DNA from: Halobacterium noricense
GTDB taxonomy: Archaea; Halobacteriota; Halobacteria; Halobacteriales; Halobacteriaceae
Direction of reading: 5' to 3'
Assembly: GCF_021233435.1 (NCBI RefSeq)
Contig: NZ_CP089468.1
Span: 1,488,001 to 1,552,000, forward strand
Length of the DNA: 64,000 bases
Notes under the pieces: model-generated
What the model was told of the DNA's origin: nothing
Database searches by the model: none
What the model saw: only the letters and a program-made list of their open reading frames with translations
Part shown: piece after piece, positions 23,451-45,218 of the stretch
How the letters are laid out: the number at the start of each line of letters is the position of its first letter
Position numbering within the stretch: the first letter of the stretch is position 1
Position numbers and translations under genes: made by a program

Positions 23451-23458
23451 CATAGAAC

Positions 23459-24003
23459 GGTGGTGTTCAGATAGGGACTCGTCTGAACACAGCTTCAGCC
23501 GGCGGACCAGCCGGTAATCCTGGCGGTCGCCGGGAGAGCAACGCGCTCCCGAGGCCTCGGAAATCGGAGATTTCCGGCGGATTGAAAGCGCGAGGCGCAC
23601 GTGGCGGCGAAGCCGCCACGTTTTGCAGCGGTCGGTGCAGCCGACCGCCCACTCGACGAACCCCAGCGAAGTAAGCACGTGAGCGACCACCGGGAGCGAA
23701 CGCGCGTGGTCCGAGAGACGCGGAGCGTCTCTCGTCGCAATTCGTGAGGGCGGCGAACGCTTCGCGTTCGCCTGCTCTCGAAAGAGCGCTGTGCGCTCTT
23801 TCGGCGACAGAGAGGGAGCAAGCTCCCTCAGGCAGCCGGCGGGCTATGCCCGCCGGCGACAGCGAGCCACGGGAGTCTCGTGAGTGCAACGAACGAGACC
23901 ACGGGAGACGAGCACTGCGAGTCTCCCGACGGTCGAGACTGCCGAGGGCTTTCAAAACGCAACATCGTCTCCGCTACTTTCGTCTGCTTATCTGAACACT
24001 GCC
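23459..24003 (+). mobile_element. Non-coding hairpin-array element, copy A (545 bp), with 8-bp target duplication
   Basis: The element starts GGTGGTGTTCAGATA and ends (read inwards from the other side) GGCAGTGTTCAGATA; it is flanked by the direct repeat CATAGAAC at 23451-23458 and 24004-24011, an 8-bp duplication as made by IS6-family transposases. Inside is a string of hairpins, most with 3-base loops. Arms: GTGTTCAGA (23463/23482), GGAAATC (23559/23569), CGTGGCGGC (23600/23612), GCGGTCGG (23628/23641), CGAGAGACGC (23712/23725), GGCGAACGC (23752/23764), CGAAAGAGCGC (23779/23793), GAGGGAGC (23812/23822), GCCGGCGGGC (23835/23848), GGGAGAC (23903/23921). All these are perfect. Open frames inside are by-products of the palindromes. 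The element has no transposase and was probably moved by an IS6-type enzyme. Confidence 0.8.
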
Positions 24004-24406
24004 CATAGAACGAAACTAATGCGAAAATGACGTCATCTGCCGGTAATCCCATGTGTAAAATTATTATTGATTGGAGTTAGTGGACGACCACAGACGACGA
24101 GATGGGGTCCCAATTTCGCAGTCGGGATTACACCAATACCTTTGTAATTCTTTGGTGAGTGGCTCGTCGCATGCATGACTCACCGTCGCGGCCCAACAGC
24201 AAGTCGCACCACTCAGGCCGGTAACGACATCAGCGACGACACCAGAGCGTAGAACGACGGGTGACTCCGTGGCCATGGATACGTTGCGATTGTTGGATTA
24301 CCCTAATGATTCTGAGTTAGCCTTGCATCAGTACGAGGGGTTTTCATTACTTTAGGATACTATCGGGTACACCCGTACGAGGATTTCTAGACCGCGATTA
24401 TTCGCT
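24004..24406. other. Gene-free stretch between hairpin element A and the broken IS630 gene
   Basis: The first eight bases are the right target duplication of element A. The rest has no supported gene; its 3' part may contain the left end of the IS630-type element, but I could not find a clear terminal repeat. Confidence 0.45.
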
Positions 24407-25133: not shown

Positions 25134-25252
25134 GGCACTGTCTAGTTGAGTCAGTTTGAGAAGTGAGCAGGTCGTTGAGTAAGTTGGTCAAGATGCTCGC
25201 AGACCTGCTCAACGAGAGATGAACCGGATTTAGAAGAAACTTGGGAGAATGA

Positions 25253-25345
25253 GCGGACGGCGACGTGACGAGACGCTCTGCGTCTCGTTCGCACATCAGA
25301 ACCCGTTGGGTTCTGAGGACGCCCGTTAGGGCGTTCGCCGTCCGC
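25253..25345. repeat. Three tandem hairpins inside an 11-bp outer stem, within the IS6 transposase region
   Basis: GCGGACGGCGA (25253-25263) pairs perfectly with 25335-25345. Enclosed are three hairpins: arm ACGAGACGC with loop TCT (25268-25288), arm TCAGAACCC with loop GTT (25296-25316), and arm ACGCCC with a 4-base loop (25319-25334). This is a four-way, cloverleaf-like layout. It falls between the N-terminal codons of the transposase (frame reading NERTAT) and FAVRLHQTG, and breaks that frame, so it looks like an insertion of hairpin units of the same kind as those in elements A and B. Confidence 0.65.
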
Positions 25346-25924
25346 CTCCATCAGACCGGTTGTTTTCTTCGAGAAACAACAACAATTTTAGCTGAATTAG
25401 GCATGCAACGCTCTCATGGTGCGGTTTGGAACTGGGTGCATCGGCTATCTGACAGCGGACGCGACCCGCCTGAGGCCCAGCCGTCAAGGGTCGCCGTCGA
25501 CGAGACCGCTGTCAAAATTAACGGTGAGTGGTCTTGGCTGTATGCTGCAATAGACATCGACACAAAGTTGATTCTCGATGTCGCGTTGTTTGGTCGGCAT
25601 GGCACTGATCCGGCCGCTGCGTTTCTGCAGAAACTCCAGGAGAAACATGATCTCTCGGAGGCTGAGTTTCTCGTCGATCAGTTCGGCTACCGGACTGCCC
25701 TTGCTCGAGTAGGATTGAGCGGCCGGGTCAACTATACCGAGCGAAACCTCATCGAAAAGTGGTTTCACACGCTCAAAATGCGGGTCGGCCGCTTCCATAA
25801 CTCGTGGGTGGGCAGTCGATCGAGCGTTCGAGAGTGGCTTGAACAATTTATGCATTACTACAACCGCCACAGACCGCATCAAGCTCTCGATGGAAAAACG
25901 CCGATCGAGGAGGTCCAGAACTAG
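25265..25924 (+). pseudogene. IS6-family transposase, 5' end disrupted
   Basis: The frame from GTG 25265 gives 219 residues, of which those from FAVRLHQTG onward match the haloarchaeal IS6 type: HTH with RSHGAVWNWVHRL, DDE catalytic domain with VAVDETAVKINGEWSWLYAAID, FLVDQFGYRTAL (second Asp) and RNLIEKWFHTLKMR (Glu), ending RPHQALDGKTPIEEV. The N-terminal part normally encoded upstream is visible in other frames (KMLADLLNER, then DEPDLEETWENERTAT) and is separated by frameshifts and the hairpin nest. The DDE domain itself is intact, so a shorter protein started at the GTG might still act, but loss of function is more likely. Confidence 0.75.
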
Positions 25925-26064
25925 ACAGTGCCGCGTCACAAAATTGAAGATTGAGCGTCATTAGCGGCTTCATAGACCTCATCTGAACAGTACTTGATAT
26001 TCGACATGCTAATGCTAATCAGTACTTCGGCGCGCGATCTATTGGTATAAGTATCCCCCTCACC

Positions 26065-39033: not shown

Positions 39034-39173
39034 GCGTATTGATGCCTTCCTCCTGAAGGTACAGGTCTCTTCTCCTATCTAGTCCAGGGGGGAAGCTGAC
39101 GCTCTTCTATACTACAGGCAAGAAATGTGATGGGGGGTAATCTTCTGCGAGTGAGTCCATCACCGCCAACCAG

Positions 39174-39709
39174 GTAGTGTTCAGATAAGCAGTTTCCAGC
39201 AGCAGAGTTGTGGGGAACAGCTGAAAGCCCTCGGCAGTCTCGACCGTCGGGAGACTCGCAGTGCTCGTCTCCCGTGGTCTCGTTCGTTGCACTCACGACA
39301 CTCCCGCGGCTCGCTGTCGCCGACGGGCATAGCCCGCCGGCTGCCTGAGAGAGCTTGCTCCCTCTCTGTCGCCGAAAGAGCGCACAGCGCTCTTTCGAGA
39401 GCAGGCGAACGCAAAGCGTTCGCCGCCCTCGCAAATTGCGACGAGAGACGCCGTCGGCGTCTCTCGGTCGACTGCGGAAGACGCGTCGCGTCTTCCGAAC
39501 GCCGGGGTTCGTTGAGTGGGCGGTCGGCTACGCCGACCGGCGCAAAACGTGGCGGCGAAGCCGCCACGCGCGCCTCGCCCCTTCAATCCGCCGGAAATCT
39601 CCGATTTCCGAGGCCTCGGGAGAGCGTTGCTCTCCCGGCGACCGCCAGGATTACCGGCTGATTCGCCGGCTGAAGCTGTGTTCAGACGTATCCTTATCTG
39701 AACACCACC
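39174..39709 (-). mobile_element. Non-coding hairpin-array element, copy B (536 bp), inverted relative to copy A
   Basis: The ends read GGTAGTGTTCAGATAAG and, from the right, GGTGGTGTTCAGATAAG. Read on the minus strand it follows copy A over most of its length, with the same hairpins: arms GGGAGAGC (loop GTT), GGAAATC (TCC), CGTGGCGGC (GAA), CGGTCGGC (TAC), CGAGAGACGCC (GTC), GGCGAACGC (AAA), CGAAAGAGCGC (ACA), plus one not in A, CGGAAGACGC (GTC, 39476-39498). Two stems carry single mismatches (GCCGACGGGC and GAGAGAGC arms). The flanking octamers (GCCAACCA and TCTCGGCC) differ, so no target duplication is left. The 50 bases at its left end differ from A but match element C. Confidence 0.78.
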
Positions 39710-45105: not shown

Positions 45106-45218
45106 GGCGGTGTTCAGATAAGGACTGAAACTGGCTTGATGTGCTCGCCGAGACAGCCGAGGGCTTTCAGCTGTTCCCCACGACTCTGCTGCTGGAAACT
45201 GCTTATCTGAACACTACC
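45106..45218. mobile_element. 113-bp miniature inverted-repeat element C with 8-bp target duplication
   Basis: The ends are GGCGGTGTTCAGATAAGG and, inwards from the right, GGTAGTGTTCAGATAAGC. Perfect flanking repeats GAAGGGGC lie at 45098-45105 and 45219-45226. The right 60 bases match the left end of element B in reverse, but the hairpin array is missing, so it looks like an internal deletion derivative of a B-like element. The clean target duplication shows that it moved as a unit. Confidence 0.85.

Follow-up and report, generated by a model that had tools for sequence, protein, structure and literature searches.

The window analysed here, a stretch of 64,000 nucleotides from the genome of Halobacterium noricense, carries a non-autonomous IS6-family MITE whose interior has very probably collected small hairpin elements that jump independently of it. 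With somewhat less confidence, we favour the view that these hairpins represent an undescribed, order-wide class of haloarchaeal mobile DNA. Its members would measure 45-90 bp, consist of paired C(GNA)G mini-hairpins, encode no transposase and jump into intergenic DNA, transposons and, in frame, ordinary protein genes; template switching would keep their stems while their loops flip and hypermutate, so that archaeal proteins would continually be supplied with new polar loops. The carrier is of a known kind, and the novelty lies in its hairpin cargo.

The element (545 bp, 23459-24003, plus strand) has the termini GGTGGTGTTCAGATA and GGCAGTGTTCAGATA and is set between two exact copies of an 8-bp target duplication, in the order CATAGAAC, GGTGGTGTTCAGATA...TATCTGAACACTGCC, CATAGAAC, the duplicates lying at 23451-23458 and 24004-24011. 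Its terminal inverted repeats (TIRs), GGTGGTGTTCAGATAGG at 23459-23475 on the plus strand and its counterpart at 23987-24003 on the minus strand, match those of resident IS6-family elements, the left one fitting the form GG[CT][AG]GTGTTCAGATAAG of the IS6 parents. A first-pass annotation had proposed IS6-like ends, a perfect 8-bp duplication and movement as a unit; coordinates, ends and duplication proved exact, and the last two support such movement. When perfect hairpins were defined by a stem of at least 7 bp and a loop of 3-8 bases, 8 were found in the element; 500 dinucleotide shuffles gave 0.33 on average and never more than 3. Their stems measure 7-11 bp and six of the eight have 3-base loops, as annotated. 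The number of at least ten perfect stem-loops given in the annotation is reached only if imperfect ones are counted, and its description of the element as almost wholly made of hairpins was overstated, perfect hairpins accounting for 173 of the 545 bases. Folded as single-stranded DNA, the element has a z-score of -9.8 relative to shuffles. The hairpin count per 500-base bin reaches its maximum for the window around this element, and the next densest bins fall in a second long copy at 39173-39709 (537 bp, minus strand, 8 hairpins). No match to the element was found in plasmid and phage collections. The flanks of the window copy were not found in the other 12 Halobacterium genomes, so that no empty site is available for it.

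To characterize the carrier, we searched the H. noricense genome with the element and obtained 78 matching stretches. The end motif was found in the genome as facing pairs, and 26 copies that do not encode a transposase are bounded by the TIRs; they range from 113 to 609 bp, and most show an exact 8-bp duplication. The same ends, GG[CT][AG]GTGTTCAGATA, delimit elements of 693-698 bp that encode IS6-family DDE transposases (PF13610 above cut-off), and several of these parents, 697-698 bp long, have intact frames of 212-213 amino acids. TIRs of IS6 type starting with GG, an 8-bp duplication and a DDE transposase partner with intact frames in the same genome establish the carrier as an IS6-family MITE whose likely autonomous partner is present. 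The resident 697-698-bp IS6 transposase would move the MITE in trans, as the shared ends and duplication suggest. Two backbones, A and B, are distinguished among the copies. The window element has backbone B, the second long copy is a recombinant (B on the left, A on the right), and a 113-bp copy at 45106-45218 (plus strand, 8-bp duplication GAAGGGGC) has backbone A and no hairpins. ISfinder lists two IS6-family MITEs, of 227 and 336 bp (PMC7986276); like them, the carrier has IS6 ends, an 8-bp duplication and no frame of its own, but it differs from them by optional hairpin modules and a length of up to 609 bp, and a chain of hairpins is indeed unusual for a MITE, as had been noted. Elsewhere in the genome (C1:1581832-1583911, L092 and L093), a 431-bp MITE and a 1641-bp TIR-bounded segment stand in tandem with the 8-bp duplication GTATGAGG present three times, an arrangement of the type left by IS6-type cointegrates.

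The hairpins of the window copy are grouped in modules, all given here on the plus strand. Module A (23527-23580) consists of CGGGAGAGC, imperfect in this copy, and CGGAAATC; it is missing in several copies, and the pair recurs outside the MITE (L117, L127, L128). Module B (23598-23653), formed by CGTGGCGGC with the loop gaa and CGGTCGG with the loop tgcag, is missing in the copies of 228-285 bp and likewise recurs as a pair outside the MITE (L119, L120). It is followed by a core segment of intergenic-repeat type, CGAAGTAAGCACGTGAGCGACC...GCGAACGCGCG (23654-23706); module C, which is found in several MITE copies and not in the window copy, sits in those copies just before the CGAAGTAAGC stretch. 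Module D (23707-23859) comprises CGAGAGACGC, GGCGAACGC, CGAAAGAGCGC, GAGGGAG and GCCGGCGGGC; short copies lack it and its ordered array recurs outside the MITE (L116, L129, L130). Module E (23875-23931), 57 bp of imperfect inverted repeats, is optional, being present in some copies and absent from others. No hairpin module at all was found in 10 of the 26 copies: the interior of those of 113, 208 and 227-228 bp is free of hairpins. The two 285-bp copies carry module E alone, and the longer ones vary by whole modules A-E. Identical modules occur on the two backbones and on recombinants between them, and stems, linkers and their order recur outside any IS6 ends, both in this genome and in other species. 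The existence of hairpin-free copies and the differences by whole modules show that the hairpins are cargo and not part of the MITE design, which the first-pass annotation had taken them to be; the check that it had itself named, absence of the hairpins from other copies, comes out against that design to the extent of these 10 copies. The MITE interior would correspond to a haloarchaeal intergenic repeat that accumulated small mobile hairpin elements. Such a repeat, GACGTAAGCACCGCAGG...GAGGAGCGCAGCGAG, recurs as a frame holding hairpin arrays (L231-L310, Halorubrum loci), often adjoins the motifs CTCAAAGGGGC and GGGGCTTT, and has a version in the MITE core.

Modules A, B and D may have been gained one by one or captured as a ready-made array, and gain and loss may both be at work within the MITE. 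The extreme form of capture would be that the MITE enclosed a pre-existing intergenic hairpin array once, the shorter copies being deletion derivatives and the hairpins not being separately mobile within the MITE. Arrays with matching order, found both in H. noricense itself (L116) and in other species (L129, L130) without the MITE around them, are in line with such an event, and deletion is plausible between the direct repeats GCCGATACAGCC/GCCGAGACAGCC for the 113-bp copy and between hairpins for copy 1573375. However, a single capture leaves unexplained both the independent insertion of double hairpins, module C included, into coding genes and the presence of inserts in particular species only. 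We regard it as possible, though doubtful.

Evidence for these insertions came from a comparison of 800 kb of the H. noricense genome with that of another Halobacterium species, G014 (593 kb aligned), in which indels were counted if they spanned 15 bp or more and had good flanks. A perfect hairpin is present in 24 of the 45 indels, compared with 3.3 expected from random windows, and a C-closed triloop in 19 of the 45, compared with 0.6 expected. The lengths of the hairpin-bearing indels cluster at 45-60 bp and usually comprise two hairpins. Twenty of the 24, most of them located in frame within conserved genes, are multiples of 3 (P = 6.6e-7), which is expected of any indel retained in a coding gene and indicates translation, not hairpin mobility. 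At 22 of the 24, a long open frame is common to both species, and 17 of these 22 sites show a clean in-frame protein gap, the remaining alignments being weak or doubtful. The inserted peptides encoded by the hairpins are polar, for instance DLRKTTASSSAAHQNAKRSED. The gene of a SAM hydroxide adenosyltransferase (Pfam) and one further gene were checked across Halobacterium; the insert is present in only 1 of 13 species for the former and in 1 of 12 for the latter, in both cases that of the window, which identifies these two differences as insertions. In-frame insertion into protein genes whose orthologues lack the insert is also the behaviour of Rickettsia palindromic elements (RPE). We propose that the mobile unit typically spans 45-90 bp and joins two different hairpins across a spacing of 4-9 bases. 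On this view such units jump on their own into intergenic DNA, other mobile elements and, in frame, protein genes, as the empty orthologous sites show, writing short polar peptides into proteins as RPE do. Of the alternatives offered by the first-pass annotation, a pile-up of tiny palindromic insertions is therefore the best supported. The insertion junctions are ambiguous by several bases; within this ambiguity, no long target duplication is evident at the units. A 3-bp GAC duplication, suggestive at several coding sites, was rejected because sites with GGC or CGC as their left flank do not conform to it.

Module C shares its hairpins and linkers with coding insertions at C1:382661, 765318 and 348825. 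We searched 146 genomes of the order for its right half, CAGCCCATCAGAACGCNNNGCGTTCTGAGGAC, allowing at most one mismatch; 25 of them, from 14 of the 56 genera covered, carry it, while the reversed control gave no match. In several genomes this motif is in frame and encodes the peptide DV[HR][QK]Txx..AAHQNAxRSED. Its hosts include a metallo-beta-lactamase/rhodanese protein, histidine kinases, a NAD kinase, a thioredoxin-like protein and TnpB proteins, and across genera the peptide lies inside or between domains of these unrelated proteins. A scan of 84,980 species with the hairpin alone gave, among the matches listed, 76 haloarchaeal loci out of 80. Outside the genus, the exact hairpin GGCGAACGC is almost absent, and the unit with TCAGAACGC is the wide one; single stems are thus poor markers of breadth.

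When the MITE copies are compared in pairs, diversity reaches 0.285 for loops and 0.081 for linkers, but only 0.030 for stems. Loops occur as reverse complements of each other (GAA in seven cases and TTC in four, ATA in three and TAT in five, GCA in five and TGC in one), and no intermediates were seen for the GAA/TTC and ATA/TAT flips. In an orthologous array near C1:113053, one loop reads GGA in H. noricense and TCC in G014, and another GAA and TTC, respectively. That the element encodes a multi-hairpin RNA with stems under selection, one of the options of the first-pass annotation, would agree with its strong folding, with a stem conservation far above that of the loops and with a few paired changes (TCAGAACCC..GGGTTCTGA versus TCAGAACGC..GCGTTCTGA), covariation being uninformative inside the MITE copies because their stems hardly vary. 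Yet the element has no match at E<=1 to the curated families of Rfam 15, and 10 copies have no hairpins, on which grounds we dropped this reading. Moreover, the units occur singly and in frame within many unrelated proteins, strand-flipped loops would not be tolerable for a strand-specific RNA, and the C(GNA)G motif is the signature of DNA mini-hairpins. A structured RNA is therefore highly improbable.

Perfect stems, paired changes and inverted loops are the predicted outcome of template switching at hairpins (PMC8794818), a process described there as mutation in RNA genes and not for mobile repeats. Could the hairpins be purely a product of such mutation, made locally and never dispersed? 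Template switching can create and repair perfect stems and invert loops (PMC8794818), and loop flips are observed; but local creation would yield unrelated stems, while unrelated loci, also of different genera, share identical stems and linkers in an unchanged order. The 29-base right half of module C, common to 14 genera, and a 48-bp unit present in two different genes, one in H. noricense and the other in G014, also disfavour local origin, which we hold to be very unlikely. Template switching may well maintain the hairpins: acting at an extruded hairpin, it would keep the stems perfect and invert or replace the 3-base loops, as the flips and the near-invariant stems suggest.

The loops also point to the form in which the units act. 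In 400 kb of the H. noricense genome, 82 triloop hairpins with a stem of at least 8 bp were counted, compared with about 18 expected from second-order Markov sequence; a C-G pair closes 80% of them (33% expected), and the loop is GNA or TNC in 54% (9% expected). The C(GNA)G excess is similar in G014 and in one genome of another genus (G019), absent or weak in the Halobacterium samples G009, G013 and G018, and in stretches pooled from 19 other genera the hairpin excess is no more than weak. The C(GNA)G mini-hairpin is exceptionally stable, among the most stable DNA mini-hairpins known, which suggests single-stranded DNA as the relevant form. Spread would most likely proceed by a single-strand mechanism, with a HUH/Y1-type transposase in trans or by templated insertion at replication forks, and without a long target duplication. 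An alternative reading is that the units, with hairpins such as TCAGAACGC and CGTCAGAC, are minimal PATEs, namely fused IS200/IS605 ends moved by a resident TnpA. In the passages of PMC3119063 that describe them, Haloquadratum PATEs can be as short as 52 bp and reduced to termini, with near-terminal palindromes and no duplication, and a long target duplication is not evident for the present units either. However, the six Y1 transposase loci of the H. noricense genome carry different hairpins in their flanks, with none of the mobile-unit type and no palindromes matching the units, and resident TnpA (Y1) elements found no support as their source in this genome. We consider minimal PATEs unlikely.

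Coding palindromes are, to our knowledge, known mainly from Rickettsia and from few other bacteria. Passages of a MITE review (PMC10969869) single out RPE (Ogata et al. 2000, 2002) as a striking example of palindromes inserted in frame. On that account, RPE and the present units are both small palindromic mobile DNA found in frame in unrelated protein genes, with several families and a recurring peptide per family. They differ in that RPE measure about 150 bp and are bacterial, whereas our units measure 45-90 bp, are archaeal and mostly pair two hairpins whose C-closed loops of 3 bases vary and flip; a MITE also carries them as arrays. The likeness drawn here is one of behaviour; the units work like RPE and are not filed as RPE. 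REP/BIME and the GTAG- and CGTC-tagged repeats are also short hairpins, often dimers of different units and sometimes inside genes (PMC3733652). GTAG repeats have a RAYT transposase (PMC3733652); neither a tag nor an enzyme was identified for the present units, with GTAG not evident at the unit ends that were read and the six Y1 transposase loci of this genome lacking such hairpins in their flanks. The CGTC class has stems of 8-9 bp, loops of 4-5 bases and an unpaired CGTC tag at one end (PMC3733652), in contrast to the 3-base, C-G-closed loops of the large majority of our units. REP surveys do not mention haloarchaea (PMC3733652, PMC12306157). Mitochondrial double-hairpin elements are also reported to consist of two adjacent GC-rich hairpins forming a mobile unit (PMC2800124, PMC5910586), but these are organellar and intergenic, and the likeness drawn here is in architecture. 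The Haloquadratum PATEs and SMRs, as presented in passages of PMC3119063, are transposase-free haloarchaeal repeats with palindromes, some families of which prefer other mobile elements as targets; unlike our units, PATEs are tied to IS605 ends and SMRs measure about 80-110 bp and have TIRs, and those passages describe no in-frame coding insertion of either. We found no description of the present units in the open-access literature searched. Halobacterium and Haloferax are genetically tractable. Archaeal coding palindromes with clean empty sites between close species make the spread of an enzyme-less DNA hairpin testable. They also give access to the preservation of perfect stems next to changing loops, and to the question of whether peptide insertions in haloarchaeal proteins originate from mobile hairpins.

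A stand-alone unit is present in the window at 25262-25321 (plus strand). It consists of ACGAGACGC (loop tct) and TCAGAACCC (loop gtt), ends in GAGGACG, and belongs to the same TCAGAAC/GGAC family as module C. This unit is located at the upstream side of a different IS6-family transposase gene (ORF 25265-25924, within 25180-25990 of the window). A similar sequence in a Natrialbaceae MAG (L293) has a related unit at the equivalent place with a different first hairpin. The partners of the TCAGAACGC hairpin vary freely, including CACGAGAGC, CGGAAGACGAC, CATCAGAC, ACGAGACGC and CGAAAATCG (L231-L310, L410-L439), as though the unit's first hairpin could be swapped. In two histidine kinase genes of one genome (L411 and L435; G327, genus g17), AVEHGSTS-like repeats stand beside the hairpin-coded peptide at the start of the ATPase domain, perhaps reflecting insertion with duplication.
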